Shown here one piece after another: positions 8,533-38,949 of a stretch of 38,949 nucleotides of DNA. How positions within the stretch are numbered: position 1 is the first letter of the stretch; each line of letters opens with the position of its first letter. The position numbers and the translations under genes were made by a program. Source of the DNA: Lachnospiraceae bacterium (GTDB taxonomy: Bacteria; Bacillota; Clostridia; Lachnospirales; Lachnospiraceae); the NCBI GenBank assembly GCA_017469935.1, contig JAFUFL010000058.1:1-38949 (forward strand), read 5' to 3'. The notes under the pieces are model-generated. The model was not told where the DNA came from. It worked only from the letters and a program-made list of their open reading frames with translations, and did no database searches.

Positions 8533-8571
8533 CACCTCGCTTTCCTTTAACTGGGTCCATTATTCCATGCG

Positions 8572-8591
8572 AAACTTAGACAAAACTTAGA
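8572..8591 (-). promoter_or_regulatory. 11-bp-spaced direct repeat upstream of VTC
   Basis: The 9-mer AAACTTAGA occurs at 8572-8580 and again at 8583-8591, exactly 11 bp apart, about 40-60 nt ahead of the VTC start and after the upstream gene's terminator. Direct repeats with one-turn spacing are typical of OmpR/PhoB-type response regulator sites. Regulator unknown. Confidence 0.4.
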
Positions 8592-8606
8592 AATAAAATA
8601 AGTTTG

Positions 8607-8637
8607 AAAAAAAGTCAGGGGATTTTTCCCCTGACTC
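8607..8637 (-). terminator. rho-independent terminator of the AAA/CYTH gene
   Basis: On the minus strand the stem GTCAGGGG/CCCCTGAC (8628-8635 with 8614-8621) is followed by a run of seven T (8613-8607). It lies about 25 nt after the gene's stop and separates it from the VTC operon. Confidence 0.9.
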
Positions 8638-8660
8638 ACTGAAAATCATTCCGCGCGTCC

Positions 8661-9755
8661 TCACTCCGGCTTATGCTTTGCCAGATAGGAGTTCTTGTAC
8701 TCCGGCAGCTTTGTCACTTCTTTGATGATCTTGATCTCCTCGGGGAAAGTAACCTTGTCGTTTATATCCCGCAGTTCGATCTCCATGATCGCCTTGTCGT
8801 TCCAGAACGGATAGACATCTATTTTAAAATACTGATTATTGTAAGTGAGGCAATACCTGTCCTTGCGGATCTGTCCCAGAGAAGTGTCGGCATTCATGAG
8901 AAGGTTCAGGTACTCATCCTTGGTAATCCTTCTTTCTATCTCGATGCGCTTGTAATCGCTCACCCGGCGCTTGGTCGTCTGGTAATAAATATAGTGACCG
9001 CTGCTTCCCCGCTGGCGCACCCGGATCTCCTCGTTGTCATCGACCTTGAGATACGTCTGGATGATCTCCACTTTCTCGCAGTGAGGCAGCGATTCGAGCC
9101 ACTTGAGGTCCGGATACTCGACGAGGAAGTTCCTCTCGATCTCCAGAGGCTCCGGCTCGCCCAAGAAGGACGCGATCTCCGCGATCAGCCTCTTCATCTT
9201 ATCCGTGAAATCCATGGAGTTGTCGATCACCCTCAGGTGCGGGTGTCCCGTCCAGGCCGCGATGAACTTGTCATCCATCGTTGCTGCCTCTTCGATCCCC
9301 TCCGTTCTGGCCTTATTGTTTGCCAAAGTATAGAACTCCTCCGCTCCTTTGGCCGCCGTGACGAGATGGAAAATGGCGTCGTAACTGTCCCGCAGTTCCA
9401 CTTCATTGACATTGACGGAGCGAAGAACCTCTTCAAACGTTTCGTCGTCCATATAGACTTTATTGTCCAGCGCGCCTCTGTCGCAGACGATCAGGACCTT
9501 GTCCTTCTTCATCACGCGCGCAGCCTGCTCAAAGACCTTCTCCTTCTCCAGCTGCAGGCGCATCTGGCAGAACTGGTAATCCGCATTGGTCTTGCAGGTC
9601 CAAGGCGCCACGCCGCCGTTGATCAGTTCCGTCGCCGTCTCCGGCACGATCAGGACGACATAGCCTTTTTCTGTAAAACTGTTCATGATCCAGCTCAGCG
9701 CCGTGGTCTTGCCGGCGCAGGGACCTCCGGTTATCACTATTTTGGTAACGTCCAT
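8661..9755 (-). CDS. AAA/P-loop kinase-like and CYTH (TTM) fusion protein
   Basis: The 364-residue protein has two parts. Residues 1-195 are a P-loop NTPase (Walker A GGPCAGKTT at 10-18, VPETATEL, LIVCDRGALDNKVYM) of the AAA_28/nucleoside-kinase-like type. From about residue 203 a CYTH-like triphosphate tunnel domain follows: LEIERNFLVEYP, RVRQRG, YQTTKRRV, RIEIERRI, FKIDVYPF, AIMEIELRD. The same order occurs in animal TTD14-like proteins and in many clostridial proteins. The first CYTH motif has Asn where Lys is common (EIERN). A strong AAGGAG site precedes the start. It probably binds or hydrolyses nucleotide or polyphosphate ligands. It ends with its own terminator before the VTC operon, which encodes another tunnel-fold enzyme. 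Confidence 0.85.
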   Translation of the reverse strand: MDVTKIVITGGPCAGKTTALSWIMNSFTEKGYVVLIVPETATELINGGVAPWTCKTNADYQFCQMRLQLEKEKVFEQAARVMKKDKVLIVCDRGALDNKVYMDDETFEEVLRSVNVNEVELRDSYDAIFHLVTAAKGAEEFYTLANNKARTEGIEEAATMDDKFIAAWTGHPHLRVIDNSMDFTDKMKRLIAEIASFLGEPEPLEIERNFLVEYPDLKWLESLPHCEKVEIIQTYLKVDDNEEIRVRQRGSSGHYIYYQTTKRRVSDYKRIEIERRITKDEYLNLLMNADTSLGQIRKDRYCLTYNNQYFKIDVYPFWNDKAIMEIELRDINDKVTFPEEIKIIKEVTKLPEYKNSYLAKHKPE

Positions 9756-22913: not shown

Positions 22914-25900
22914 CTATCTCGCTTTCCAAGGAGTCCCCTCCGCATCGAGTGACTTCTGCGCCTCCGTCCCTTCATAGCAATGGATCACATATTTGTACTC
23001 GCCGGTATCATAGTCCTTCTCGTCGATCGAGCCGATGTCCAGAATGGAAGCAGGGAGATAGATGTCTTTGATCCGGTCGCATTCCTCTAAAGCATCGTAT
23101 TGGATATAAAATGTCCCTTCAGGTACGTACAGATCCCCCTCCATACCGGTGGGAACGGCGGCCAGCGTCGAGCCGTCCTTACTCATGAGCAAGCCGTCTG
23201 TGACCGTGAAGTTCTCATTGTCCTCGTCGACCTCATATTGGTCAAAGACTGCTCCGCTGATCGAGTTCTTATTGAACTTCAGCTTGGACGGGATCCTGAT
23301 CACATCCTGTGTGAAGAGAGGCTCACCGTAGTCCGTACCGAATGCGGCATATCCCATGGTTTCCAGCTTTTCAGGCAGCTCGATCCTTCCGAAGTTCTCT
23401 GTAAGCGTGAAGGCGGAGTCTCCGATCGATACCACCGAAGAGGGAAGGCTGACGTCTGCCAGAGGCGCGCTGTCGAATGCGTACTTTCCGATCTCCTTAA
23501 GCCCCTTGTTGAACACGACCGTTGTCAGGCCATAGCAGCCGTCGAATGCATGATCCCCTATTGTGCGCAGCGACTTAGGGAACGTCACCTTGCCCAGATT
23601 ACTGTTAAAATAGACCGCACTGTTCCCGATTCTCTCTGTTTTGGCAGGAACTTCATATTCCTTGTCCTTTTTACCGACGGGATATCCGATCAGAGTTTCT
23701 CCGGATGCGTCAAAAATAACCCCGTCTATACTCCGGTAATTCTCGTTCTTCTCATCCACTTCATACGCCTCACACTGTGAGAAGTCATTCAGGAATGTCA
23801 CGTCAATCTTCTCTACGGACGCCGGTATGATCAGCTTGCTGCTCCAGCAGTAAGAGAACGAGAATTCGTCGCTCCGAAGCCCCGTGACCGGAAGGTCCCT
23901 GAACGTATCGGGGATCGTGAGCACGCCTTTGTTGTACGTTTCGCAGTCCCAGAGCTCCGCGCGGTCCTTGAAGACATGGAAGGTCATTGTAATCGGATCC
24001 GCCCCGTCCGCTCCCGGCATCTCTTCTGTAACTGTCTCATAGACCATATAGTCCGGATCCGTCACGTCGTCATGTTCGATCTCGAACTGTTCGGCATATT
24101 TTTCCGCTGCCGACCCTCCCGAACAGTGCAGTGTGATACCGTCGTACAGATATATGTAGCCTCCGTTCCCGTCATCTTCCAAGTCGTAGGGAAAGACTTC
24201 TGTGCCGAATCGGAATACACTGTCCGGGATCACAAAGTCCGTGACTTCGCTGCAGTTTTCAAGCGAATGGTCCTCCAGCGCCGTGATTCCCTCCGGTATG
24301 ACCATGATCGGTTTCATTCCCCGGGGCAGCTCTATGATCGTATCCTTGGCCTTGTTGGTGATAAATCCTCCGGACGAGGCAAAATAGGGATTGCTCTCAT
24401 CCACTTCAAAAGCCGCTATGTTCATCATATTAAAGGCGTCGGTGCCGATGTATCTGACATTCGGGCCGATCCGGACCTTATCGATGACCGGATTCTCCGT
24501 CGAATGTGTGAACAGGTCATAGAAGCCGAACGCCCTGATGCCGATCGACTCGACGCTGTCCGGAAGATTAAAGGAAGAGAGCTTATCACACTCGAAGAAG
24601 GTCATGTTTTCGAAAGTCTTAATTGTATCCGGAAATACGACCTTTTCGATCGCGGACTCCGCGAAGGCGCCGTAACCGATCACTTCCGTGCCTTTTTCCA
24701 CTTTGTACTCGCCGCCTTTGGCGCCCGGGTACTGGATCAATGTTTTGCCGTCGCCGCTGTAGAGGACGCCGTCTACCGTCTTATAATTGGTATTTTTATC
24801 GCTGATCGTGATCTCCGCGAGATTATCGCACCCGTTGAAGGGAATAGACCCGATCTTCACAAGGCTCTCGGGGAGCCGCACAGAGGTAATGTTCTTTACG
24901 TCGCTGAAGGCGCCTCTCTGGATCTCTTCTACGCTGTCCGGGATCTCGAGCTCTGTGATGGCTGTACCGCTGAGCGCCTCAATCCCGATTGTCTTAAGGC
25001 CGTCGGGGAAAACGATTTTCTGCAGCGTGTTGACGGACAGCGCGTATCTCCCGATCTCCGTCACTTTTTTGCCCCCGACCTCTGCCGGGATCGTAAGCTC
25101 TTCGTCCTCTCCGCTGTAGCCGGTGATCACAGCTTCTTCTCCGGAGACATCCGCGTAGAGCGTCCCCTTTTCCGTCGGAATCTGTTCATAATTCCGGCTG
25201 TGGTCCAGATTCAGCTCAATATAATCCGAGCCGTGCACATTTGAGTTGATATCCTTGACCAAGACTTGACAGATAAAATCGTGGTCAAATTCCGACGCCG
25301 GTTTCATCTGGATCCGAAAGCCGTTTTCCAGGCACAGTGGGTACATCTCATACCCGGTGGTCTTCCAGTCAAAGTAAGGCAGCATATGCCCCTCGCTGTC
25401 GCGCTGGGGCGAATAGGAGATGCTTCCGGCGTTGATAAGAGTCTCATAGTTGGAGACATCGACAGAGGCCTTTCCGCCTGTCCACGCGCTCCCGGAACCG
25501 GATGTGATGTCGAGGACGCTCGCTTCCCTCTCTCCGGTGATATTCCTGGCAGTGATCACGACTTCCTCATCCTTATCCCGGTCGACGTCCATAAATTCAT
25601 GTCCCGGAGTGAGGAAGCAGCTGAGCGTCTTATAGATGCATTCCTCTCCGTTTTTCTGCGCCTGTATACATGTAAGAGGCGCCGGCGCTTCTTCCATATC
25701 CGTAGCGGCATGAAGCAGCATGGGGTCGGACGGAATATGCAGGACATTGTTCTCATCCGGCTCGATCACGACATTGGCCGTTGTGATCGCGAAATCGCCA
25801 AATCCGTTCCTCTGCAGTACCGTGTAAAAGGCGCTGGAAGAATTTCTCACCTGTTCTTCCGTCAGCTGCACGGTAAGTTCCTCGCCGCTGCGCTCGATCG

Positions 25901-27374
25901 GGGCAATCGTCCAGTCCGTATTCGTGCTCTCATTCCAGGAATCCATGTACGCATTGACAAATTGCGTGTAGCTCTCAGAGAGAGCGCTCTCTTCGGAATA
26001 CAGTTCTTTCGAGATGCCGTAGAGCTCCTGGTTGTCGCCGGGAAGATAGATGGACATGCCGGAGGCGCCGCTGACGTTGGACGTGTACTCGACCAGCATC
26101 CCGTCCAGCGCCTCGTGGACCGCCTGGCACTCCTGCGGATACATCTCTTCCAGGTTCCCCGCCAGGTCTCGGAGGTCCAGCATATCGTACGCGTCATTTT
26201 TGCTGCTTGCCGCGCTGAGTCCGAACGCCTTGGTTCTGGCTCTCGCTTTATTGATCTCCGGGTAGTTTCCTTCCTCAATTCCCTTCTTCATGGCTCCGAA
26301 GAGGACGCCCGCACTTTCGATCAGTTCGTCTGTCTTGCTCAGGTCCATGGCGGCCAGCGTCACATCCGGGTTGAAGAATTCCGACTTATTGGCTTCATAA
26401 TAGCTTCCGTACGTCTTCACGATCGAACTGACGATGGCCCGCGCGTCATCCGTGCTGTTGAGCGTGCCCAGGAAACTGTAATCCCAGCCGCGGCCGGACT
26501 CCAGCTCCTCCGATCCGACCAGATACTGCGCGTAATCCTTCCACAGGTTGGCCGTCTCTATGCTGCCCATCAGGCACGCGTCGAATCCGACCCAGTCCAG
26601 CTTCCTGCCGTTCGTGAATATGGTCTGGTCCATGGCACCGCGAAGTTCATCGAACAAAAGACTGTCGTTGTCGTAGAGCTCGTCGCTCCCATAGCCCCAC
26701 AGAGGGCCCGCGCCGTGGTCCCACAGAACAAGTCCGTAGTGCTTGGCCGGGAAATTCGTTGTGCAGTAATTGACGAACTCGGAGAGCGTCTGCGCGGCGC
26801 CCATGTCCGCCGTCTCCGCGGTCTGCGCCTCGACTTGCAGCTCCTCTCCGTTGGCCATATTGATCACGCTGTTGCATTTATTGGAGATATCGCTGGTCCA
26901 CCTCTTGCTCCCTCCGGTGTAGACAAGCAGGTTGTTCTTGCTGTAGTCCAGCCCCGAGGCGATCATCTCGTTGATGTCGTTGGTCGCGGCGCCGTAATGG
27001 CTCTCCAGGTTCGAGCCCACGACATAGACCATGACCGTGTAATCTTTGTCCGAGAGCTTAGGCAGCTCCCGCGCCGCAAAGAGCGCGGATGCCTTCTCAT
27101 CGATATCCATTCTCTTCTTATTCTCGGCGGCTCGGCTGTAATTCGAAGTCTCCTGTCCCATGATCACCAGCTCCGGCTTCTCGCTCCCGCCTGGTTCCTC
27201 CGCCGCCGCACTCTCATCTGCCGCGCTCTCCTGCGCCGCCGCACTCTCCGCTGCCGCCTGCGTCGCCCCCGTCGCGCCGCTCTGCGCCCCTTGCGTACCG
27301 GCCGCTCCCGTCGGTCCCCCGCAGGCGCTCAGGAACATCACTAACCCGGTAAGTATTGCAATCGTCTTCTTCAT
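22914..27374 (-). CDS. clostripain-family (C11) peptidase with BspA-type LRR region, lipoprotein
   Basis: ATG at 27374 with GGAGGAG just upstream gives 1486 residues. LSAC (Cys18) is a lipobox. An Ala/Gln/Glu linker leads to a C11 cysteine peptidase domain (about 110-500): VMVYVVGSNLES, LVLWDHGAGPLWG (His220) and GFDACLMGSIE (Cys267). After an intermediate beta-rich domain (about 510-740), many LRR_5 units follow, e.g. VTEIGRYALSVNTLQKIVFP, AITELEIPDSVEEIQRGAFS and LRTIGDHAFDGCYGLTTVVF, up to the end. The second gene of the operon encodes a zinc-ribbon/TM protein. It probably works as a surface peptidase whose LRR part binds host or microbial polymer. Confidence 0.87.
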   Translation of the reverse strand: MKKTIAILTGLVMFLSACGGPTGAAGTQGAQSGATGATQAAAESAAAQESAADESAAAEEPGGSEKPELVIMGQETSNYSRAAENKKRMDIDEKASALFAARELPKLSDKDYTVMVYVVGSNLESHYGAATNDINEMIASGLDYSKNNLLVYTGGSKRWTSDISNKCNSVINMANGEELQVEAQTAETADMGAAQTLSEFVNYCTTNFPAKHYGLVLWDHGAGPLWGYGSDELYDNDSLLFDELRGAMDQTIFTNGRKLDWVGFDACLMGSIETANLWKDYAQYLVGSEELESGRGWDYSFLGTLNSTDDARAIVSSIVKTYGSYYEANKSEFFNPDVTLAAMDLSKTDELIESAGVLFGAMKKGIEEGNYPEINKARARTKAFGLSAASSKNDAYDMLDLRDLAGNLEEMYPQECQAVHEALDGMLVEYTSNVSGASGMSIYLPGDNQELYGISKELYSEESALSESYTQFVNAYMDSWNESTNTDWTIAPIERSGEELTVQLTEEQVRNSSSAFYTVLQRNGFGDFAITTANVVIEPDENNVLHIPSDPMLLHAATDMEEAPAPLTCIQAQKNGEECIYKTLSCFLTPGHEFMDVDRDKDEEVVITARNITGEREASVLDITSGSGSAWTGGKASVDVSNYETLINAGSISYSPQRDSEGHMLPYFDWKTTGYEMYPLCLENGFRIQMKPASEFDHDFICQVLVKDINSNVHGSDYIELNLDHSRNYEQIPTEKGTLYADVSGEEAVITGYSGEDEELTIPAEVGGKKVTEIGRYALSVNTLQKIVFPDGLKTIGIEALSGTAITELEIPDSVEEIQRGAFSDVKNITSVRLPESLVKIGSIPFNGCDNLAEITISDKNTNYKTVDGVLYSGDGKTLIQYPGAKGGEYKVEKGTEVIGYGAFAESAIEKVVFPDTIKTFENMTFFECDKLSSFNLPDSVESIGIRAFGFYDLFTHSTENPVIDKVRIGPNVRYIGTDAFNMMNIAAFEVDESNPYFASSGGFITNKAKDTIIELPRGMKPIMVIPEGITALEDHSLENCSEVTDFVIPDSVFRFGTEVFPYDLEDDGNGGYIYLYDGITLHCSGGSAAEKYAEQFEIEHDDVTDPDYMVYETVTEEMPGADGADPITMTFHVFKDRAELWDCETYNKGVLTIPDTFRDLPVTGLRSDEFSFSYCWSSKLIIPASVEKIDVTFLNDFSQCEAYEVDEKNENYRSIDGVIFDASGETLIGYPVGKKDKEYEVPAKTERIGNSAVYFNSNLGKVTFPKSLRTIGDHAFDGCYGLTTVVFNKGLKEIGKYAFDSAPLADVSLPSSVVSIGDSAFTLTENFGRIELPEKLETMGYAAFGTDYGEPLFTQDVIRIPSKLKFNKNSISGAVFDQYEVDEDNENFTVTDGLLMSKDGSTLAAVPTGMEGDLYVPEGTFYIQYDALEECDRIKDIYLPASILDIGSIDEKDYDTGEYKYVIHCYEGTEAQKSLDAEGTPWKAR

Positions 27375-27484
27375 GACCACTCCTCCAAAGGCACCGGCCT
27401 TCTGCGCCGATTCTGTCAAAATATCGATCACTTTAAGTATAGCATATGCGCCGGCCTCTTCTGTTACACAAATATTACAAACTA

Positions 27485-29047: not shown

Positions 29048-29080
29048 AAGGCCTTGGGACCGGTCCCAAGGCCTTATCTT
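29048..29080. terminator. terminator-like perfect palindrome between convergent genes
   Basis: AAGGCCTTGGGACC and its complement form a perfect 28-nt palindrome followed by TATCTT. It lies between the DUF3048 gene and the 3' end of the minus-strand seven-gene array. Confidence 0.65.
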
Positions 29081-29140: not shown

Positions 29141-29830
29141 CTATTTTGTCGGCGTCGCCCCGTAAGAAAACTGAAGTTCCTTCGGGACATGATGCTTGTC
29201 GCCGATATACAGGAGTCTGATCTGATCCTGCTCATCGATCTCGGCACAGCTCACGCATACATTGTAGAGCTGAAAGCGCTCCATTCTCTCCGCAGGTATC
29301 CCCGAGGCGTAATTGAGAAAAGTCTGAATGGCCGTCCCATGGGAGGCGATCACAATATTTTGTCCCCTGTGCTCCCGCGCGATCCGCATGACCGCCTGCG
29401 ACATCCTGTCATAGACCTCGATCATGGATTCCCCGCCGGGGGCCCTGGCATGTCCTCTGTCTTCACTGAGAACATACATCCTGTAAAACTCGGGATAGCC
29501 CTCCTCGATCTCTTCCTTGGTCCACCCGTCGATCGCCCCGAAATCGATCTCCATTACACCGGGTTCCACCAGCACCGGAACTTCATGGTCCTGGGAAGAG
29601 AGGCAGTATTCCAGCGTTTTGGCGGCGCGCTGCAGCGGACTTGTGACCCCCAGGTCCACACGGATGTCCCTGAAATAGTTCGCCAGGCACGCTCCCTGCT
29701 TCTCTCCCACATCGTCCAGCGGGTTGTCCGTCTGCCCCTGGTAGCGCAGCTGCTGGTTCCACTCCGTTGTCCCGTGTCTCACGAGATACACTCTTGTCTT
29801 CTTCTCTCCGGCCATATCGTTTTGATTCAT
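29141..29830 (-). CDS. histidine phosphatase (phosphoglycerate mutase-like)
   Basis: The 229-residue protein carries VYLVRHGTTEWN (His19), TSPLQRAAKT, PGVMEIDFGAIDGW and IVIASHGTAIQTFL, the four signature blocks of the histidine phosphatase superfamily. A GGGAGC site precedes the start. It is the last gene of the minus-strand array that begins with the helicase, 26 nt after the transglutaminase-like gene. Members act on phospho-sugars, cobamide precursors or phosphoproteins; the substrate is not evident. Its place beside a kinase and a PP2C makes a role in phosphate-signal removal conceivable, but that is inference. Confidence 0.85.
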   Translation of the reverse strand: MNQNDMAGEKKTRVYLVRHGTTEWNQQLRYQGQTDNPLDDVGEKQGACLANYFRDIRVDLGVTSPLQRAAKTLEYCLSSQDHEVPVLVEPGVMEIDFGAIDGWTKEEIEEGYPEFYRMYVLSEDRGHARAPGGESMIEVYDRMSQAVMRIAREHRGQNIVIASHGTAIQTFLNYASGIPAERMERFQLYNVCVSCAEIDEQDQIRLLYIGDKHHVPKELQFSYGATPTK

Positions 29831-29856
29831 TTGTAGGCTCCCTGCTATCTTTTTTA

Positions 29857-30633
29857 TTAAGTGAACATATTTCCGCGCCGGGTCCCGCAGGCCGGAACAT
29901 TTCTCTTCCAGTCGTGGTCCCTTGCCGCCTCCTGATCGCTGATCAGGTAATACTTGTAGGAAATATCTCCCTTTCTGCTGAGATTGATATCCCAGGTCAT
30001 ATCCAAATGATAAGCCTTTCCGCCGATCTTCACAATATTCCAGGCGTGATTTCCGTTGTCATCCTCAAAAGCCGACTGCCCCGCCACGACGATGCAGGGG
30101 ATGTTCAGGGCGTTCAGTACAAGCTTCACGGTTTTGGATATGCCGTCACAGACGGCGCACTGCTTGGAGAAAATTCCGATCACGGAATGGGCCGAGATCA
30201 GTCTCCCCTTCTTCCGCTCGCTCAGAGCCGTGTCGTCATAATCCGTTTCCGAGGCCAGATAGTCGTGCAGCCTTCGCACCGCCTGTGCGTCCGTCATCCG
30301 GCCCAGATCCAGTTTGCGGATCAGATCGTTCACGCCCTGCTCAATCCGGCCGTTAAAGTCGCGTATGATCTCCCCGCCGAGCGTGTAGGAAGGCTCGATC
30401 AGGGTCCTCTCGCAGGCCCCGGAATACTTTACAATATGGAGCTCCCTTCCCAGATAGTAGAGATGCGGATTGTCCAGGACGAGCGCCACATAGATTTCCA
30501 TGATCCGATCCGCATCGGCGCCGCCCTCAATCTCGGCCGCCTTTCTGCCGTTTACCACGGCGTCGTGCAGCGCCTCATAGATCCGCCGGTCCCGGCGGTT
30601 CATTCTTGAATAGTAATAGCGGTCCGCGATCAC
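29857..30633 (-). CDS. transglutaminase-like cysteine protein
   Basis: The 258-residue protein starts at GTG, with GGAGG 6 nt upstream. It has the transglutaminase core triad: Cys162 in CAVCDGISKTVKLVLN, His196 in GNHAWNIV and Asp211 in HLDMTWD. This order matches bacterial transglutaminase-like proteases or crosslinkers (PF01841 type). The first 130 residues are helical and of unknown role. There is no signal peptide, so action in the cytoplasm is expected, which is less common for this fold. Neighbours are PP2C (42 nt upstream) and histidine phosphatase. Confidence 0.83.
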   Translation of the reverse strand: MIADRYYYSRMNRRDRRIYEALHDAVVNGRKAAEIEGGADADRIMEIYVALVLDNPHLYYLGRELHIVKYSGACERTLIEPSYTLGGEIIRDFNGRIEQGVNDLIRKLDLGRMTDAQAVRRLHDYLASETDYDDTALSERKKGRLISAHSVIGIFSKQCAVCDGISKTVKLVLNALNIPCIVVAGQSAFEDDNGNHAWNIVKIGGKAYHLDMTWDINLSRKGDISYKYYLISDQEAARDHDWKRNVPACGTRRGNMFT

Positions 30634-30675
30634 CCTTGTCCTCCGTTTACTCTGTTTGATACGGCCTCATTCGTT

Positions 30676-31662
30676 TCAGATACAATGTGCCCGGCGTCTG
30701 TTCCATCTGCTCGCGCTGTGCCTTGCCATCTTTCTGCGTCTTCGCATTCGTCTCCGATAGGCTTCCGGCCTGCCGGCCTCTCCGCCATCCTTGTCAAAAT
30801 AGGCCATGACCATCGTGATATCATCCCCGCAGCCCAGGGCACTTGTCTCCGAGAGCCATCCTTCCAGGCTCGACGCGACCCTGCAGAATCCGTATCGGAC
30901 CGCCGCCTCGTAGTAGGCCATACAGGTCTTCTCGTATTCCTGCTGCGTTCTGTGGCTGTTCGCCATTCCGTCTGTCGACATCATGAACATATAGGGCAGC
31001 GCGTCCGGTCCGGGAGACGGGAACACGGAAATCGCACTCTTCTTCCAGGCGTCCGTACTGCTCAGCGAGTGGGTCTCCACGCCCAGGATCTTATCGCTCT
31101 CCACCGCGTACTGGACGCCGTCCCTGCTCACCAGGACAATGTCGCCGTCCCCGATCTGGAAGGCAAAGACAAATTCCGTCGTTATGAGCAGTCCCAGAAG
31201 CGTCGTGCCGTAGAGCTTGTACACTTCTTTCGGGTCGCCGGCACCATTCAGGCCGCCAGTGTCATTCAGACCGTCAGCGTCATTTGGGCCGTCAGCGTCC
31301 GGATCCCCGACCGGCGGCTGTCTCCGCTCCTGCATGTGATCGCGCAGCACGCGCCGCTTCCACTCCCTCTCTATGGACTCCGGGATCTTCAGGTTGCCTT
31401 CCCGGCTCAGATAGGACCGCAGCATGAGGCTGTCGCCTTCGAAACTCTCCAGAATCTCCTTCATGCTGCTGCAAAACACTTCCGCCGCGATCTTCGCGCC
31501 GACGCCGCTGTGCGGGCAGCGCTCGCTCCCGTGCCCGTCGGCGGCCGCGATCACGACGGCCGAGTCCGACAGACTCTCGACCCGGCAGCTGTCCTGACAC
31601 TCCGTCCCCTTTCTGATATGAGAAGCCCCCCTGACGCTGATTCCATATAGATAACGTTTCAT
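30676..31662 (-). CDS. PP2C-type protein phosphatase
   Basis: The 328-residue protein has the PP2C metal motifs ADGHGS (Asp42), FQIGDGDIV, STDGM and GCGDDITMV. A low-complexity Asp/Gly/Asn linker (about 118-143) interrupts the domain between strands. The C-terminal 35 residues are strongly basic (RRRMRRRRK), perhaps nucleic-acid or membrane contacting. It starts 12 nt after the VWA gene and is the phosphatase member of a TerY-P-like triad. It would be expected to reverse phosphorylation by the upstream kinase. Confidence 0.88.
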   Translation of the reverse strand: MKRYLYGISVRGASHIRKGTECQDSCRVESLSDSAVVIAAADGHGSERCPHSGVGAKIAAEVFCSSMKEILESFEGDSLMLRSYLSREGNLKIPESIEREWKRRVLRDHMQERRQPPVGDPDADGPNDADGLNDTGGLNGAGDPKEVYKLYGTTLLGLLITTEFVFAFQIGDGDIVLVSRDGVQYAVESDKILGVETHSLSSTDAWKKSAISVFPSPGPDALPYMFMMSTDGMANSHRTQQEYEKTCMAYYEAAVRYGFCRVASSLEGWLSETSALGCGDDITMVMAYFDKDGGEAGRPEAYRRRMRRRRKMARHSASRWNRRRAHCI

Positions 31663-31674
31663 GGGAGTTCCTCC

Positions 31675-32442
31675 TTACCAGACATCCTCCGCCTTTACGT
31701 CTTCGGGCTTTGGAATGTTGTTGATACTCAGGTAATTCTGCGCCTGTACGGCGGGCTTTTTCTCTTTTCCTTCCTCCGCGATTTCTCCCTGTTCCTGCTT
31801 TTCCTTATTCTCATCGGTCTTGGAAGCCGGCGAAGAGACGGAACTGACCAGCGTGGACGCCCACTTAATGAGTCCCGTGAGCATAGTCGCGTTGTTTGCC
31901 TTGAAGACGAGCTCCGGGTTGCCCGTAAACTCGGTCAGCACGTCATCGTCCGCGTCCTTGCCGATGGAAATGGCGATCCTCACTGCTTTTTTGCCCCAGG
32001 GCATCTTCAGGAGCTTCTCCAGCGGTCCCTTATAGTTATCGGTGGGCATGCCGTCCGAGATCAGGACAATCACGGGAGGGAGCGCTCTCTCCGGCATGGG
32101 AGGAATGCTCAGCTGCGCTGCCAGAAGGGAGAAGGCCTTGCCCATATCGGTGAGGCCGTCCGCCTCCAGATCGTCCCAGGCGAAGTCCTCCACCGGAACC
32201 GGCTCCGGCGTGATCCAGGAGGCGCCTGTGGAAAACCGCAGCGTTCTGACATAGACCTGCGCGTTGGGGTTTTCCAGTGCCGCGCTCTTCATCTCGGGAA
32301 TTACCGACTGGATCGCGTTGTTGAGGGCACCGATCTTCTCCTTTCTCATCGAAGACGAGTTGTCCGCTACCCAGAAAAAGTACAAAGGCCTGCTGGCGAG
32401 TTCTCCGCCGGGTCTGACCAGATTGGTGGTTTTGTTTGGCAT
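31675..32442 (-). CDS. VWA-domain protein, TerY-like
   Basis: ATG at 32442 with AAGGAGG 7 nt upstream gives 255 residues. The metal-binding MIDAS is intact: Asp27-x-Ser29-x-Ser31 in VADNSSSM, Thr in GLTDMG and Asp in VLISDGMPTD. The VWA domain fills about 15-210; a Lys/Glu-rich linker and a short conserved-looking tail (NYLSINNIPKPEDVKAEDVW) follow. There is no signal peptide, so it is cytoplasmic. Small VWA proteins of this type (TerY) pair with a zinc-ribbon kinase and PP2C. The tail may be a phosphorylation or docking segment. Confidence 0.85.
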   Translation of the reverse strand: MPNKTTNLVRPGGELASRPLYFFWVADNSSSMRKEKIGALNNAIQSVIPEMKSAALENPNAQVYVRTLRFSTGASWITPEPVPVEDFAWDDLEADGLTDMGKAFSLLAAQLSIPPMPERALPPVIVLISDGMPTDNYKGPLEKLLKMPWGKKAVRIAISIGKDADDDVLTEFTGNPELVFKANNATMLTGLIKWASTLVSSVSSPASKTDENKEKQEQGEIAEEGKEKKPAVQAQNYLSINNIPKPEDVKAEDVW

Positions 32443-32453
32443 ATTCTTTCCTC

Positions 32454-32561
32454 CTTGCTTATATGTGCGGGCCTCCGCAGAGACGCCCGTTCTCATCGTG
32501 TGCTCCGGCCGCTCAAAAAGCGCCGGTCCTTATCGTATGATTCGGACGCTCAAAAGCGCCG
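32454..32561 (-). repeat. three 36-nt hairpin repeats between the kinase and VWA genes
   Basis: Three tandem 36-nt units fill most of the 132-nt gap. Units at 32526-32561 and 32490-32525 (minus strand) each carry GGCGCTTTT(T)GAGCG, a short hairpin, and end in ACGATAAGGA or ACGATGAGAA. The third (about 32454-32489) is more diverged and leads into the real AAGGAGG site of the VWA gene. The units look like copies of a ribosome-site region. Confidence 0.7.
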
Positions 32562-32574
32562 ATTTCGCCTGCGG

Positions 32575-33876
32575 TCAGCAGAATTCTCCCTTCACCGTTC
32601 CGAAGTCGATGGACGCTCCCTCCACGACCGCGCCGCTTCTGCCCGCCGAGATCGCTGTCTGCGTGCCGTCCTGCCGCAGGTAAGTCCAATTGACCTTATC
32701 GTCATTGCGGACGCCCAGAACGCGCCGGTCCCTGGGATTCTGGACGACTTCCCCGATCGCCGTCTCCATGTCGTAGTCCGAGTAGACGTGGTGCGAATAG
32801 AGCTTTCTGCCCGGCGTCAGAAGAAGCCGGTTCTTTCCGATCTTCATCAGAACGGGCGGCGCTGACTTCGTCCTGCAGTTCCAGCAGCTGTGAGGTTCAT
32901 TTCTCACTGTTTTGGCAGGGTCATAGAAGATCTCCGCCCCGCACTTCGGGCAGGCATAGATACAGCTCATCATGTTGCTGAGGACGCCCAGCCACTGGTT
33001 CTCCGTCACGCGCATATTGGGCTGCCGGATTCCCACCGTAAAGGTCTGCGTAAACAGGTCCCTGAGATCCTGCGGATAGAGATCCCAATAGATCAGGGCG
33101 TTGTCCTGGTAGCCGCGCTTAGGGCGATTGGCGGCATTGTCCGGGTCGAAAATAAAGATCGGATCCGTCCCGTACAGCATGTTCATGGCCGGCACATCGA
33201 GGCACCGGATGTCCGCCTCTCTCTTTCCGTCGAGAGGGTGATTGAGCATGAACATGTAGAAGAGCAGCACTGCCAGCGACCACTGGTCGGTGTGCCTGGA
33301 CGGCGCAGCCTTGCCCGTGACAATTTCCGGCGCCATAAATCTCTGCGTCCCGTAGACCGGCACATAGTCCGCGCCGTTGTAGATCACGTTGTCGTTGTCG
33401 CAGATCAGGACGTCCCCTGTCTCCGGGTCAAAAAACAGATTGCCAAAAGAAATGTCCCTGTAACTGTAGCCCTCATCGTGGAGCTTTTTGAAAGCCATCG
33501 TGGTCTTATAGGCGGCCTTGCACAGGACATAGAAAGTCGGGTCGGCCTTCCTCTTCATGAGGTGGATAATGCTCGTGTAGTGGTCCGGGCGAAAGTCCAT
33601 GGCATAGCCGAACAGGCTGCTTCCCTCAAGATAAAGCATATCCAGCGGCCACAGAAAAGCCTTGTCCGGGTTGCCGCGCGCGATCAGGTGCTTGAGACAC
33701 TTTTTCTGCTGCGCCGTGGCGCCGTCCGGATAATACCACTTGAGCGCATAAATCTTTCCGCCGGATTCCACCTGATACACTTCTCCCTGCGCGCCGGCGG
33801 CACAGTATTTTTTGACCGTATACCGGGCGCCGCTGTCAGAAGACAGCACCGTTCCTGCTCTGAGTCTTCCTTCCAT
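32575..33876 (-). CDS. atypical Ser/Thr protein kinase with C-terminal zinc ribbon (TerY-P-type)
   Basis: ATG at 33876 with AAGGAGAGG upstream gives 433 residues. The kinase domain spans about 18-300: glycine loop AGAQGEVYQV, Lys46 in YALKWY, catalytic loop YRDISFGN (Asp141), metal motif DND at 160-162 where DFG is usual, MAPE at 181-184 and DQWS. The HRDLKxxN consensus is altered to YRDISFGN, but Asp and Asn remain, so activity is likely. A zinc ribbon follows (Cys309, 312, 331, 334), then about 95 residues of beta-rich tail. Kinase plus zinc ribbon beside VWA and PP2C genes matches the TerY-P triad. Confidence 0.87.
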   Translation of the reverse strand: MEGRLRAGTVLSSDSGARYTVKKYCAAGAQGEVYQVESGGKIYALKWYYPDGATAQQKKCLKHLIARGNPDKAFLWPLDMLYLEGSSLFGYAMDFRPDHYTSIIHLMKRKADPTFYVLCKAAYKTTMAFKKLHDEGYSYRDISFGNLFFDPETGDVLICDNDNVIYNGADYVPVYGTQRFMAPEIVTGKAAPSRHTDQWSLAVLLFYMFMLNHPLDGKREADIRCLDVPAMNMLYGTDPIFIFDPDNAANRPKRGYQDNALIYWDLYPQDLRDLFTQTFTVGIRQPNMRVTENQWLGVLSNMMSCIYACPKCGAEIFYDPAKTVRNEPHSCWNCRTKSAPPVLMKIGKNRLLLTPGRKLYSHHVYSDYDMETAIGEVVQNPRDRRVLGVRNDDKVNWTYLRQDGTQTAISAGRSGAVVEGASIDFGTVKGEFC

Positions 33877-33887
33877 TTTTCCTCTCC

Positions 33888-35048
33888 TTATATGATTACA
33901 CTGTTCTTCTTTTTTAAGACCCGATCTCCGTAGCAGACGCACCAGACCGAGGCGGCCCACCGGGCGAGCGGCTGGCTGACGCCGAAATCGCTGACAAGCC
34001 TGCTCACAAACCTGGCCGGGAAGAGCTGCGTGAGCTCGTCGGCCTCTTCGATGGCCCGGGCGATGTCCATCTTGTAGAGACAAAGGATCAGATAGGCCTG
34101 AAGGTCATTGTCCGGCAGCAGGTCGGACATATAGGCCTTGAACCTGGCTGCGCTCTCGAGACACTGCGGATGCTCTTCGAGCATCTTCGTAAAGGCATCC
34201 TCAAACTGCCTCGCCTTGACGGTGAAATCATCTCCTCCGTCTCCGCCGGCCTCTTCCCTGAGCTCTATATCCTCAAGAAGGACGAGATCCGCGTCAAAGC
34301 TTCCCTCCTCCGCCTCTCCGGCCTGGAATCTGTCTTTCCAGGCCGAAAGCGCTTTCTGATAGCCCAATGTGAGGAGCCACCCTTCAAACTCCGGTGTGAA
34401 ATTGGCGTCGTCCTGATAGAGGCCGGCCGCCTTTTTGGAGAGCGCTTTTTTGGAAATATCCGCAAATTTCTGCAGGTAAGAGGCCAGTTCCTGTACAGTC
34501 CGGAACTGCTGCCCGTCGAACTCGAAGATTTTCTTCTCCTCCAGGACCGCCAGCATGAGCGGCAGTATGTTTCCCCGGTTGAATTTCGATTCCTTCCTGG
34601 CGTAGCACCTCTCCAGGTAGCGCACGGCCGCGACGACGCTGTCCTTTCTCCTGGAAGTCTGCACAAAATCGCCAAAAATCTGTTCCTGAATCATGAACAG
34701 GACCAGCTTTACGGTTTCTTCCTTCTGATCGGATTGCGGATCAGCCTTAATGAGCGCGCAGACATGGTCCAGGTCCCCGCAGCTTCGTCCCATCCAGTAC
34801 AGATTGGTCACGCCGGGATTTTTTACCAGCCACTTGAGAAAGAGAAGATTCCCCTTGGAGGGATCCTCATTGTATTTTTTCTCCGCCCACACGGCCGAGG
34901 CCAGGGCGCGCTTGTCAGAGCCTCCCACTTCCGCGCGGAACGCGCCTCTCACAAGGAAGTCCCTGCCCTCGCTCCAGTTGACCGCCATGGCGTTTGCCAG
35001 CGCCGCCGTCGTCGGGTAGCTGTTTTCACCAAACTTATATGCATTCAT
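33888..35048 (-). CDS. unrecognised 386-residue protein in the TerY-P-like operon
   Basis: I do not recognise the family. The N-terminus (YKFGENSYPTTAALANAMAVNWSEGRDFLVRG) looks like a small conserved module containing NW-EG and RG; the rest is predicted mostly helical, possibly a TPR- or HEAT-like scaffold. There is an acidic segment around VLLEDIELREEAGGDGGDD. The C-terminus has a cysteine-containing WAASVWCVCYGDRVL and a basic end. Its start lies 3 nt after the helicase stop and its stop 11 nt before the kinase start, so it is firmly coupled to both. It could be an adaptor between helicase and triad. Confidence 0.7.
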   Translation of the reverse strand: MNAYKFGENSYPTTAALANAMAVNWSEGRDFLVRGAFRAEVGGSDKRALASAVWAEKKYNEDPSKGNLLFLKWLVKNPGVTNLYWMGRSCGDLDHVCALIKADPQSDQKEETVKLVLFMIQEQIFGDFVQTSRRKDSVVAAVRYLERCYARKESKFNRGNILPLMLAVLEEKKIFEFDGQQFRTVQELASYLQKFADISKKALSKKAAGLYQDDANFTPEFEGWLLTLGYQKALSAWKDRFQAGEAEEGSFDADLVLLEDIELREEAGGDGGDDFTVKARQFEDAFTKMLEEHPQCLESAARFKAYMSDLLPDNDLQAYLILCLYKMDIARAIEEADELTQLFPARFVSRLVSDFGVSQPLARWAASVWCVCYGDRVLKKKNSVII

Positions 35049-35051
35049 AGA

Positions 35052-38000
35052 TCAGTCCTCTCTGATGCAGATCTTCCCGTCCGCTTCTCTGAGGATCCCC
35101 TCGTCGAGCATCTGGCTGCAGACGTCCCGCAGCCGCTCCCGGATCCTGGAACTTGTCCTTGCATACCCCAAGCTCCTTGCCGCTTCCGCGATCAGGTCCT
35201 GCGTGGACAGCCCCAGGGCCGACGTGACGATCTCACGGATCGCGTCCTTGATCTCTTCGTCGCAAATATGCTCGATCGCTCTGGGCTGCTGCCCGTCCGC
35301 GGGTACCCGTGCCCGGATCCTGAAGTGGCCGTCCGCCTGGCCGGTGAGATAGAGGAAATCTCCCCGCTCCGTGATCCGGTCGGCGAGAAGGCCGCTGACG
35401 CAGTCGTCCAGGGACCGCTTTACCAGCGCCGTCACCTTCCGGTTGCCGAAGACCGGCGCCAGTCTCTTGTAAAAGATCTCCTTGTGGATCGGCGCCTCCG
35501 CCTCCATCACGTACATGATCTTTGCCGCCAGTTTCTGGCGGATTCCGGCCCCGGGCAGATCCGGCGCCTTCATGGGATCGCTGAGCCTGTATCTCTCAAA
35601 CTCCAGCTTCTGCTCCTGCGCGGGAGCCTCTCTCTCAATGACGAGATCTTCTCCCTTTCGCATGTCGGCAGTCCTGTCCCCGCTGTCCGCCTCTTCCGGC
35701 CCGTCTTCCCCGACGGTCGGCCGATTCTTCATCGCATCCCGCAAAAAAGCGAGAAGCCTCTCCTTCTCCTGCGCCGTGTTCCGGAACCAGTTGAACGCCC
35801 ACACGTGGTGAAGCTTCCAGCCCATCTCTTTCATGACCGTCCCACGGAGGACATCTCTGTCCCTCGCTGTCCTCGCCATCGTGTAATTCTCTCCGTCGCA
35901 CTCGACGCCGGCCATATAGGTGCCCGGGGCATCCGGGTGCAGCACCGCTATATCCAGCTTGTAATCGGACTGGCCGATCTCGCGCCGGACCTCAAATCCG
36001 CTTCTGCGGATGAAATCGGCCACCACGTCCGCAAAACGGTTGTCCGTCTCTTTGTCGTCCGTCCCGTAGAGGATTCCGCTGTCATTCTGCATCGCGTAGT
36101 AGATATACTCGCGCAGGAGCCTGACGCCTTCCGCCTCCGTCCTGCTCAGGTCGATGTCCGTGGGCAGAATGGAACCGACGAGCTTGACATTATATTTTGC
36201 CCTCGTGATCGCGACATTGAGCCTGCGCTCTCCGCCCGCGGCTCCCAGAGGACCGAATCTCATATACATCTTGCCCTGGCTGTTTTTGGCGTAACAGATG
36301 CTGAACATGATTGTGTCCCTCTCGTCACCCTGCACATTTTCCAGGTTCTTGACGAAGAAAGGTTCCTCCTTGTTCTCGTCAAAAAATCCCTCGTACGCCG
36401 GATTATTCATCCGGAAGTCATTCACCGCCTCCTCGATCACGCTCTGCTGCTTCTCGGAGAAGGCTATGATTCCCAGAGATCTCTCGGGATGCTCCTTGAT
36501 GTGCTCCTCCAGAAGGCGCACACATCTCTTGGCTTCCATGACGTTGGAGCGGTCGTGGTAGCAGCCGCCGGGCACGTACACATACTCCAGTCCGCTGTCC
36601 CGCACCTTCCCCGTCCCCGGGAACGTGATCAGCCGGTTGTTATAGATCCTCTTGTTGGAAAAGGCGATCAGGGACTCGTCCTTGCTTCGGTAATGCCACA
36701 GGAGCGTGCACGCCGGCAGGCAGGCCCCCGCCTCATCCAGGATCGACTCGCTGTCGGCATCAACCAGTATCTCTTCCTCCTCATCCTTGTCGAATTCTTC
36801 GGAACTGCCCACCGCCGTAAAGAAATTCGTGGGCGGCATCTGCCGCGTGTCACCGGCGATCACCACCTGTTTTCCCCTGTAGATCGCGCCGATCGCGTCC
36901 TCGGGAAGGATCTGCGACGCCTCATCGAAGATGACCAGATCAAACCGGTACAAATCCGAATCCAAAAAATAGGAAACGGACAGCGGCGACATCATAAAGC
37001 ACGGTTTCAGCTTCATGAGCAGGGTCGGGATTGCCTTGAAGAGCTTTCTAAGCGGCATCACGCGGCTCCTCTTCTCCGACTCCTTTCTCAGAAGGGAGAT
37101 CTCGTCCATGGCACCCGTCATGCGGCCCACGCCCGCCGGTTTCTGCCCGGACAGGATCTGCGTGAGCCTTGCCCTGGCCAGAGCAAGAGCTTTTTCGTCA
37201 TTTTCCTTAAAACACGCGATCGTGTTCTCATGCAGGAGCGGCTGGAACCGCATAAGATTGGAAATTCCGTTGTCCACAAGGCACTCCATGATCCACTTGA
37301 CCAGAAATCCCTTTCTGTAGACGTTCACAATATCCCGTTCCCCCGTCTCCTCCACATATTCTATATAGTCCTCGAGGCCTTCCCTCCTGCAGGCGGCCAG
37401 AAGATCCGCGTAATCGATCCAGCTGCTGAGCTTCTCGGGATCGCTGCACGCCGTGATCCGGTCGCTGAGAACGCCCAGCGGTACGTTCTCCAGATCTTCT
37501 CCCGGGAACCAGGCGCAAAGACACCGGAAATACACGTCGCCCACGGCTGCGTCCTCGCATGCCGTCATCGCATCCGCGAAGGCGGCCTTAAACTCCCTTT
37601 CGCCGCTCCCGATCTTCTCCGCGAGAATCTGCGCCGTGCGCTCGACCATCTCGTGATCCAGATAGTCCTCGAACAGTTCAAACAGCTCTGCTGCGGTATT
37701 TTCATCGGCTGCCGAAGCGTTTTCCGAGGCCCTGGCTGCGCCACCGGCGCCGTAGCCGGTGCGATCCGCCGAAGAGTTCTCGGCAGCCTTGGCCGCGCTA
37801 CCGGCGCTGGCGCCGGCGCGATCCGCCGAAGAATTCTCGGCAGCCTTAGCCGCGCCTGCATTTTCTCCGAAAACCGAAGAACCTGCCAAAGACTCAATCC
37901 CCCTGTCAGAGATCCACTCCCGGGCTGTCGTGCCGCCGATCTTCACCTCGCTTCGCTCACCGGCATCCCTGTCCCAAAGGGCCCTCTCCGCTTCGCTCAG

Positions 38001-38949
38001 GCCGTAAAGTTTCTCATATTCCCTGCGCGCGGCGAGCTCATCGATCATGGCGCCGATCAGATTCCAGTCGGTTTCCCAGCCTCGGAAACAAGGTCCCAGA
38101 ATCTTAGCCGCATTTCTCTCGAGCTCAAAAACCCGGTTCCTCATATCCTGAAAGCTCTTCAGAGCTGTCAGGGCAGCTTCGCAGTCCGCATCGTTCAGGT
38201 CCCCTCCGAGTCCCCTGCGGGCCCCGGAGATCAGCTTCACATCATTCCTGTAATCCTGACGGAGCCACTTGAACATCGTTCTGTAATCCGTCCTGAATTT
38301 GTGCAGCAGGCGCGCCGCATCCAGATCCAGAAATTCCTCCGTCCACTCTGTCACAAGCCGCCTCTTCCACTCTTCCAGCTTCTCCTGCGACTGTCGGACC
38401 GACGCCGCGATCTTTCTGAGTTCGTCTGCCGTGCAGTCCCTCATCCAGTTCTCCGGAAGATTGTAAGGCCGGCACAGAATCTCCACAAAGCCTCTGATCT
38501 GCCGCAAAGACTCGGGACTATAGCCCAGCTTCTCCCCGTTCAGCGCGTTAAAAGAATCCACACAGTCGACGATCGCCGCCACTTCTCCCAGCGCCTTTTC
38601 CGCCTCGTCCGGCTCCTGCGGGAGCACGAATCGGCTTCCGAAGCGCTCCGCCACCAGCTTTCTCAGGGACTCAAAGAGCATCGCTTTGTGCAGCGCGCCG
38701 CACTGCTCGCGGTAGTCCTTCCAGGTGAATTGCCTGCCCGGCTCCGCGGCGATCCCCGGCTTGCCGGCTTCCGCTTTACCGGATCCCGCCAAAGTCTCCC
38801 GCGCCGCGGCCGCCAGCAGCATGACCGAATCCGCCCCGAACACGACCGTTCCCAGCTTGCTCAGCGTCTGGTCAATATAGCTTCTCAGCTCATACGTGAC
38901 GGACGTGATCGCCGTGTTCCTCCAGGGATTCTTCCTCAAATCTCCGTCA
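35052..38949 (-). CDS. large SF1 helicase with REase-like and DUF3320-like C-terminus, 5' partial
   Basis: The frame is open to the window end, so the true start lies outside; about 1298 residues are visible. They include the helicase motifs LVIFDEASQILPEDA (motif II), VVIAGDTRQMPPTNFF (III), LLWHYRSKDESLI, NVQGDERDTIMFS (V) and GGERRLNVAITRAK (VI). Walker A is absent from the visible part and must be upstream. After the helicase, SDYKLDIAVLH, AGVECDGENYTMART, RDRDVLR and WKLHHVWAFNWFRN form a Vsr/DUF559-like endonuclease fold (MTES_1575 type), followed by a DUF3320-like segment (APIHKEIFYKRLAPVFGN). An Ala-rich linker with 19-residue repeats lies at 37740-37870. It heads the visible operon. 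Confidence 0.85.
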   Translation of the reverse strand, partial: DGDLRKNPWRNTAITSVTYELRSYIDQTLSKLGTVVFGADSVMLLAAAARETLAGSGKAEAGKPGIAAEPGRQFTWKDYREQCGALHKAMLFESLRKLVAERFGSRFVLPQEPDEAEKALGEVAAIVDCVDSFNALNGEKLGYSPESLRQIRGFVEILCRPYNLPENWMRDCTADELRKIAASVRQSQEKLEEWKRRLVTEWTEEFLDLDAARLLHKFRTDYRTMFKWLRQDYRNDVKLISGARRGLGGDLNDADCEAALTALKSFQDMRNRVFELERNAAKILGPCFRGWETDWNLIGAMIDELAARREYEKLYGLSEAERALWDRDAGERSEVKIGGTTAREWISDRGIESLAGSSVFGENAGAAKAAENSSADRAGASAGSAAKAAENSSADRTGYGAGGAARASENASAADENTAAELFELFEDYLDHEMVERTAQILAEKIGSGEREFKAAFADAMTACEDAAVGDVYFRCLCAWFPGEDLENVPLGVLSDRITACSDPEKLSSWIDYADLLAACRREGLEDYIEYVEETGERDIVNVYRKGFLVKWIMECLVDNGISNLMRFQPLLHENTIACFKENDEKALALARARLTQILSGQKPAGVGRMTGAMDEISLLRKESEKRSRVMPLRKLFKAIPTLLMKLKPCFMMSPLSVSYFLDSDLYRFDLVIFDEASQILPEDAIGAIYRGKQVVIAGDTRQMPPTNFFTAVGSSEEFDKDEEEEILVDADSESILDEAGACLPACTLLWHYRSKDESLIAFSNKRIYNNRLITFPGTGKVRDSGLEYVYVPGGCYHDRSNVMEAKRCVRLLEEHIKEHPERSLGIIAFSEKQQSVIEEAVNDFRMNNPAYEGFFDENKEEPFFVKNLENVQGDERDTIMFSICYAKNSQGKMYMRFGPLGAAGGERRLNVAITRAKYNVKLVGSILPTDIDLSRTEAEGVRLLREYIYYAMQNDSGILYGTDDKETDNRFADVVADFIRRSGFEVRREIGQSDYKLDIAVLHPDAPGTYMAGVECDGENYTMARTARDRDVLRGTVMKEMGWKLHHVWAFNWFRNTAQEKERLLAFLRDAMKNRPTVGEDGPEEADSGDRTADMRKGEDLVIEREAPAQEQKLEFERYRLSDPMKAPDLPGAGIRQKLAAKIMYVMEAEAPIHKEIFYKRLAPVFGNRKVTALVKRSLDDCVSGLLADRITERGDFLYLTGQADGHFRIRARVPADGQQPRAIEHICDEEIKDAIREIVTSALGLSTQDLIAEAARSLGYARTSSRIRERLRDVCSQMLDEGILREADGKICIRED
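37741..37870 (-). repeat. 57-bp in-gene repeat in the helicase linker
   Basis: Two copies of a 57-bp unit with near identity (starts of GCGATCCGCC at 37761 and 37818), plus a diverged third, encode AAKAAENSSADR-type repeats. It is an in-frame Ala/Ser-rich flexible linker inside the insertion before helicase motif II. Confidence 0.75.

Follow-up and report, generated by a model that had tools for sequence, protein, structure and literature searches.

Genes at the locus

The window analysed here, 38,949 nucleotides (nt) from a Lachnospiraceae bacterium (contig JAFUFL010000058.1), holds in its last part a cluster of seven genes, in which a helicase-nuclease (HEL), a protein named PART and a TerY-P triad of kinase (KIN), von Willebrand factor A protein (VWA) and phosphatase (PP2C) stand with a transglutaminase-like protein (TG) and a histidine phosphatase (HIS). 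An earlier note on this DNA, made from the sequence alone, had described seven minus-strand open reading frames (ORFs) between 29141 and 38949, separated by 3, 11, 132, 12, 42 and 26 nt. This layout was reproduced, provided that the KIN start is the ATG at 33876 and the VWA start the ATG at 32442. The KIN start was chosen on the basis of the ribosome-binding site in the sequence upstream of it, AGGAGAGG. Features are listed in Table 1.

The window is one entire contig (G000:C75), so that the HEL gene is cut off at the contig end. The earlier note had called for the sequence past 38949: the first ~530 residues of HEL were found elsewhere in the same genome (G000:C25:7539-9089), and a full-length copy was found in a congener, Lachnospiraceae bacterium UBA4260 (G007, equated with our locus L116 as the stretches were identical where compared). 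In the congener the seven genes keep their order, with 83-97% protein identity. Its HEL is intact (1761 residues) and adds DUF4011 and the first half of the motor. A helix-turn-helix-Uma2 (HTH-Uma2) gene lies 34 nt upstream of HEL in the congener and 68 nt upstream in the window's own genome; the congener copy matches the PADLOC model PDC-S03. Because this gene precedes HEL in both genomes carrying the exact operon, the operon may start with a gene other than HEL. Of the earlier proposal that the operon begins with a giant superfamily 1 (SF1) helicase, the helicase and nuclease domains thus stood, but the helicase is truncated in the window and its place as first gene is in doubt.

Table 1. 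Features of the cluster (positions in the window)
Feature	Positions	Strand	Description
HEL	35052-38949	-	C-terminal 1298 residues; DUF4011-type SF1 helicase + MTES_1575 (Vsr/DUF559-like) nuclease + DUF3320
PART	33888-35048	-	adaptor-like; N-domain ~1-244 (core ~168-242), C-domain ~276-386
KIN	32575-33876	-	TerY-P Ser/Thr kinase, zinc ribbon, C-terminal beta-rich domain; Pkinase 9.9e-16 (Pfam)
VWA	31675-32442	-	TerY-like von Willebrand factor A protein; VWA 2.5e-6 (Pfam); DxSxS visible in sequence
PP2C	30676-31662	-	protein phosphatase; PP2C_2 6.2e-34 (Pfam); 12 nt from VWA
TG	29857-30633	-	transglutaminase-like; Transglut_core 2.8e-8 (Pfam)
HIS	29141-29830	-	histidine phosphatase branch 1, co-oriented; His_Phos_1 7.9e-54 (Pfam)
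Terminator-like hairpin	29048-29075	.	follows HIS, the last gene; 12 pairs and a T-rich tail on each strand

Within HEL, Pfam found AAA_11, AAA_12 and MTES_1575, with DUF3320 slightly below its cutoff. The closest PADLOC model was PDC-S37 (2.7e-254, best stretch 691-1543 of the 1550 model positions, the window protein being truncated), to be compared with only 5.6e-26 for MkoC. The HEL family also matches Hhe (PADLOC, NCBIfam) and ProA (NCBIfam), with NCBIfam scores below cutoffs: for ProA (NF058533, equivalog cutoff 1500 bits), 799.5 bits were obtained with the truncated window HEL and 1187 with a full-length relative from Aristaeella lactis. By these profile matches, HEL may be likened to the PDC-S37-type defence models.

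The TerY-P class was examined through four features, and all were found: a zinc-ribbon kinase, a TerY-like VWA, an adjacent PP2C, and a kinase alignable almost end to end with the best-scoring kinases of the order (41-60% identity). On these predicted features, the cluster belongs to the class. The 7 kinases that were aligned, all from loci of type B (described below), share without variation the Lys, the HRD-type Asp, the Asn, a DND replacing DFG, and the ribbon motif CPxCG...CWxC; the Lys, Asp, Asn and DND presumably hold their usual kinase roles. The KIN structure model has a mean predicted local distance difference test score (pLDDT) of 76.1, with low confidence in the activation region, and was taken only as showing a beta-rich C-terminal domain; its Foldseek list consists of kinases. 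VWA matches plasmid VWA and TerY-C proteins.

PART is the sixth gene product, left "unrecognised" in the earlier note, and no Pfam family scored above cutoff. Its AlphaFold2 model has a mean pLDDT of 90.2. In searches with PART alone, own genome included, it was found in 3 of 62 genomes of the genus (one match weak), 2 of 391 of the class and 5 of 398 of the phylum.

Recurrence of HEL, PART and the triad

A collection of 84,980 species was scanned with an alignment of three helicases. The scan was seeded on two short peptide patterns, and the 66 loci obtained are therefore a sample. Among them L183 is the same sequence as L151, and L154/L158 and L151/L181 are near-identical in the helicase tree. 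Three arrangements were distinguished. In type A (32 loci, an annotated example being the A. lactis plasmid NZ_CP069422), a kinase follows the helicase and PART is fused to the kinase C-terminus; the PART core was found in 29, and the other three are kinases cut by a contig end. Type B (8 loci: the window, L116, L117, L119, L123, L124, L143 and L149) has a separate PART and a TerY-P triad. The type A arrangement is thus the more frequent, the PART domain being more often fused to another kinase. Type C (9 loci) has PART without a kinase, reduced in three cases to a core of ~75 residues. Five helicases lack PART; for L126 and L140 the reason is that their contig stops there.

The coupling of a TerY-P triad to a helicase-nuclease, which the earlier note had proposed from this one locus, therefore recurs in eight loci, and the note's further expectation, that helicase, unrecognised protein and triad should be found together in diverse species, was borne out by seven type B loci from other genomes; six of these are divergent, with kinases 52-58% and PART 33-39% identical to the window's. 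All seven are Clostridia as recorded. The note had also held that the coupling would be incidental if gene order broke down in most relatives, or if the genes kept together only in close ones. Order does change, the triad being upstream of the helicase in L117, L119 and L124 and downstream in the other type B loci, but adjacency persists within one helicase clade.

This clade was seen in a tree of 54 helicases (window and L004 included), and a second tree was computed for the kinases; in these quick trees, made without bootstrap or clade test, the 8 type B helicases group with 3 of type C (L118, L127, L146) at a Shimodaira-Hasegawa-like approximate likelihood ratio (SH-aLRT) of 100, and the 8 type B kinases with that of L072, in a clade of nine, at 98. 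A long-branch warning for the kinase tree did not name the type B rows; the long rows of the helicase tree are L165, L148, L136, L164 and L004. As judged from neighbourhoods and clades, the association of HEL, PART and the triad is solid. A chance neighbourhood of the three was considered and dropped, given eight loci, shuffled order and matching clades.

Of the 48 HEL relatives that could be assessed, 44 carry the PART core in the very next gene (43 of 47 without the duplicate L183); a locus was assessable if it contains the HEL C-terminus and at least 1800 bases beyond. With ORF starts set at the first possible start codon, HEL and the gene bearing the core mostly overlap or lie a few bases apart, 301 bases at most. 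The four loci lacking a core next door are L148 (an ANME-1 archaeon), L166 (Clostridium ihumii), L153 and L165; in the last two, the helicase is split across two frames.

The two halves of PART are distributed differently. The N-domain is common to the helicase-linked kinases, and the two kinase circuits use this same N-domain beside the same helicase family. The C-domain is common to proteins of TerY-P loci. For comparison, 40 stretches of 3.6-20 kb were fetched for 52 listed places of TerY-P kinases in the order; 27 contain a complete triad, and none contains a helicase of the HEL family. Neither the PART core nor the N-domain was found in these 40 helicase-less stretches. The C-domain was detected in 5 of these stretches and in every one of the 8 type B loci (from which the model was built); none of the 32 type A loci has it. 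A second search added a sixth helicase-less TerY-P locus, L079. In L072 the C-domain is carried by an LRR_5 protein, and likewise by a second protein within the type B locus L143. One half of PART thus appears to travel with the helicase and the other with the triad. Since its core follows HEL and its C-domain recurs in TerY-P loci devoid of helicase, PART looks like an adaptor linking effector and switch. It is, on its distribution, the key element of the cluster, because its core domain adjoins the HEL family under either kinase circuit.

The earlier note had presented two further enzymes as additions to the system, and they fared differently. Four of the 8 type B loci (window, L116, L143, L149) carry an intact TG gene, and the four aligned copies keep the Cys, His and Asp which we take to be the catalytic triad; in L123, TG is a 135-residue piece without the region of the catalytic Cys. 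The 40 other TerY-P stretches, several of them short, yielded no TG (Fisher p 3.6e-4 against type B, the loci being non-independent, as the window and L116 are congeners). TG is a recurrent, optional accessory. HIS was found, among the loci examined, solely in the window and the congener. It was rejected as a component of the system and is probably a passenger.

A candidate phosphorylation-switched defence system and its alternatives

The best reading of the cluster is that of a phosphorylation-controlled, DNA-acting and probably antiphage system, as the earlier note had suggested, and it is best called a TerY-P-coupled defence with a novel partner protein, PART. That it is a phosphorylation-switched helicase-nuclease defence system has, in our judgement, somewhat better than an even chance, and an antiphage function is likely, as far as gene content and domains can indicate. 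The model starts from the genes present, their recurrence, the clades and domains that they share, the conservation of catalytic residues and the embedding of one relative among BREX genes, and adds to them a physical docking, a trigger and direction of the switch, and a target. HEL, as a DUF4011 SF1 helicase joined to a Vsr-like nuclease, would be the effector acting on nucleic acid. PART would dock on the helicase by its N-domain and on the TerY-P triad by its C-domain, so that HEL would be held beside the switch. KIN and PP2C, acting in opposition, would set the phosphorylation state of PART, of HEL or of both, with VWA as a scaffold or sensor. An infection signal would flip the switch, and motor and nuclease would then act on the invading DNA. 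TG would be an optional accessory and HIS a passenger.

More broadly, we find it fairly probable that the loci form a two-branched defence family, in which one helicase-nuclease and the new PART adaptor domain are plugged into two phosphorylation circuits. In the type A branch, the PART-fused kinase would work with FHA, NrdG-like radical SAM, Clp-type AAA and PP2C proteins; the three first genes occur together in 18 of the 66 loci, 14 of which have PP2C too. In the type B branch, the PART C-domain would fit the TerY-P triad. If true, an adaptor swap would explain how a nuclease acquires a reversible kinase/phosphatase switch. Kinase/PP2C/VWA triads accompany several defence loci, and PART is a candidate for what physically joins such a switch to an effector acting on DNA, in a small and testable set of proteins. 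The PDC-S37-type helicase, a single-gene candidate, would in the HEL clade be part of a multi-gene system, and annotation tools would gain a missing partner gene, PART.

Several known systems share elements with the cluster. Mokosh, whose PADLOC models MkoA and MkoC were both matched, is similar in having an SF1 helicase and a Ser/Thr kinase domain in one system, but its architecture is a kinase-helicase fusion plus a PLD nuclease. The PDC-S37, ProA and Hhe helicases give strong profile matches in PADLOC and NCBIfam, and NCBIfam calls Hhe a DUF4011 protein; these models, however, are of one protein each, whereas HEL has a recurrent partner and a kinase circuit. A stand-alone TerY-P antiphage system has reportedly been described (Gao, 2020), and CnuH of the CoCoNuT systems is presumably an SF1 helicase. 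TerY-P triads accompany CoCoNuT systems, and types II and III-A resemble the cluster in combining such a triad with the UPF1-like helicase CnuH and nuclease components (PMC11090510). The cluster differs by its DUF4011 helicase with MTES_1575 nuclease and by PART; moreover no McrB-type GTPase, coiled-coil nuclease or HEPN was seen when the seven genes were compared with Pfam, PADLOC and NCBIfam, the rest of the genome not being searched. The stand-alone TerY-P system, which protected PAO1 from phage (PMC10889362), likewise consists of kinase, VWA and PP2C, but its kinase is reported to bear an OB-fold (PMC11090510), in contrast to the zinc ribbon and the helicase-PART partner of the cluster. 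GAP1-N2 systems are accompanied by a similar triad, in which a zinc-ribbon/beta-rich kinase, PP2C and stand-alone vWA form a plug-in switch (PMC7159879); they are GTPase-centred, and that text nowhere uses the word DUF4011. In P. aeruginosa, a DUF4011 gene borders a hotspot of defence genes (PMC10250203). Literature searches, which covered titles, beginnings of abstracts and some passages, found no link between a DUF4011 helicase and a TerY-P triad. By the features tested, the cluster is not CoCoNuT, BREX or KKP.

Some observations weigh against the proposed defence system or its generality. The type C loci L118, L127 and L146, inside the type B helicase clade, have no triad in 16-25 kb, and conversely L072, inside the type B kinase clade, has a triad and no helicase in its 20 kb. 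The lack of HEL in the 40 other TerY-P stretches argues against a general link. In L148 and L166, the helicase frame is unbroken and the sequence continues, and PART is missing. The seed helicases had been chosen for their PART neighbours, so the figure of 44 in 48 describes their clade and not all DUF4011 helicases. Of 14 genomes of the order in which the PART N-domain was matched, 12 show no helicase within the fetched stretch (some being short contigs), most of these matches falling on kinases. Two of the five C-domain matches in other TerY-P loci sit near threshold. A structural search with the PART model gave no clear relative, and docking is proposed from domain sharing only. On viral contigs, the helicase alignment detected two distant helicases, neither with PART; the kinase alignment detected five contigs with TerY-P-type kinases, none with a helicase. 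For the enrichment in defence islands, which the earlier note had proposed to score, a PADLOC tally of neighbours was made: at 1e-15, 105 families were matched around HEL and 53 in the control, a weak difference with no protein-level count. The tally compared 120 of 162 HEL-neighbour ORFs (at most 3 per locus, the PglZ of L143 included) with a control of 120 out of 142 ORFs, drawn from 20 contig stretches taken without selection; the control family mad3 was matched by 5 proteins, six control stretches were shorter than 5 kb, and some of the ORFs surely do not represent genes. Neighbours of L158, L181, L122, L180, L182, L183 and L116 were left out as near-duplicates, own genus, or lacking a helicase.

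Among alternatives, the triad could be a Ter-type sensor of metal or stress, and the helicase-nuclease could repair the cell's own DNA rather than act on phages. We consider this rather unlikely. TerY-P triads have been tied to tellurite resistance and to a possible metal-sensing switch (PMC11090510), and two of the type B loci (L119, L143) contain TerY_C-type zinc-ribbon proteins. However, HEL resembles defence models, one locus is interleaved with BREX genes, and the distribution is patchy, PART being present in those 3 genus genomes out of 62. The lack of TerD, which the earlier note had reported for the window, extends to the whole draft genome: TerD (PF02342) had 0 matches, with two control genomes positive, TerB and TerC not being searched.

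A toxin-antitoxin arrangement resembling KKP appears improbable. The kinase activity would be toxic and PP2C its antitoxin, phage factors hitting PP2C would release the toxicity, and the helicase would be a substrate or a separate module. KKP does operate in this manner, the balance between its Ser/Thr kinases and a PP2C setting the outcome of phage infection and being able to govern defence (PMC11341870), but it is defined by two kinases and a phosphatase, with neither helicase nor VWA. The cluster has a single kinase gene, VWA and PART, and the matching helicase and kinase clades argue for the helicase being integral.

That HEL, PART and the TerY-P triad are an accessory working with a BREX core is very improbable. 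It would fit the L143 locus (Lachnospiraceae bacterium C.4_2), where BREX genes are interleaved in the order PglZ, HEL, PART, BrxL, leucine-rich repeat/PART-C protein, 191-residue protein, KIN, VWA, PP2C, TerY_C zinc ribbon, TG; it would also fit L093, where a TerY-P triad has a fragment of BrxL nearby, and the viral contigs with PglZ, BrxL and TerY-P genes described below. Relatives of PglZ or BrxL were nevertheless found in no other type B locus examined, and PglZ (PF08665) and BrxL (PF13337) had 0 matches in the own genome (a draft, 98.55% complete), control genomes being positive and PglX and BrxC not searched.

Finally, a merely incidental co-orientation of unrelated genes is scarcely credible: it would agree with the look of HIS, for which it stands, and with the absence of the helicase from the other TerY-P stretches, but for HEL, PART and the triad it is already contradicted by their recurrence in eight loci, where the order varies and the clades agree, and by HEL and PART overlapping or lying close together.

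Other genes around the loci

Further observations were made around the related loci and in the window. In L004 (7566-21042) and 18 loci (L134, L144, L152, L154 and others), the order is helicase, kinase-PART, a protein of ~430 residues, zinc-ribbon FHA, NrdG-like, Clp-type AAA and PP2C. For the A. lactis copies of the type A cluster, PADLOC and NCBIfam matches name no system for the whole set. In L038 (4853-16002), four consecutive proteins of 753-1078 residues match the kinase-PART query over the kinase and part of PART.

On L208 (4922-13325, an IMG/VR contig) and L209, both classed as viral, a TerY_C-type gene and then a TerY-P kinase come directly after relatives of PglZ and BrxL. VWA and PP2C come after the kinase in L208, and L209 ends within the kinase. 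In L123 (the cultured isolate Lachnotalea glycerini DSM 28816), a MobA/VirD2-type relaxase gene lies upstream of the helicase (8155-9102), and its closeness suggests that this locus is on a mobile element.

In L116 (2889-8021) and L182 (2209-4641), a phenylalanyl-tRNA synthetase beta gene is found upstream of the operon, identified with Pfam in L116 and as a relative in L182; L116 has, between the synthetase and Uma2 genes, one more transglutaminase-like gene, which bears a YARHG domain. Past the end of the operon, the window (22914-27431) and the congener encode a clostripain-like peptidase (1505 residues in the window) with BspA-type LRR_5 repeats. Further away in the window (10193-12799), a glycoside hydrolase family 3 protein bears a C-type lectin domain.

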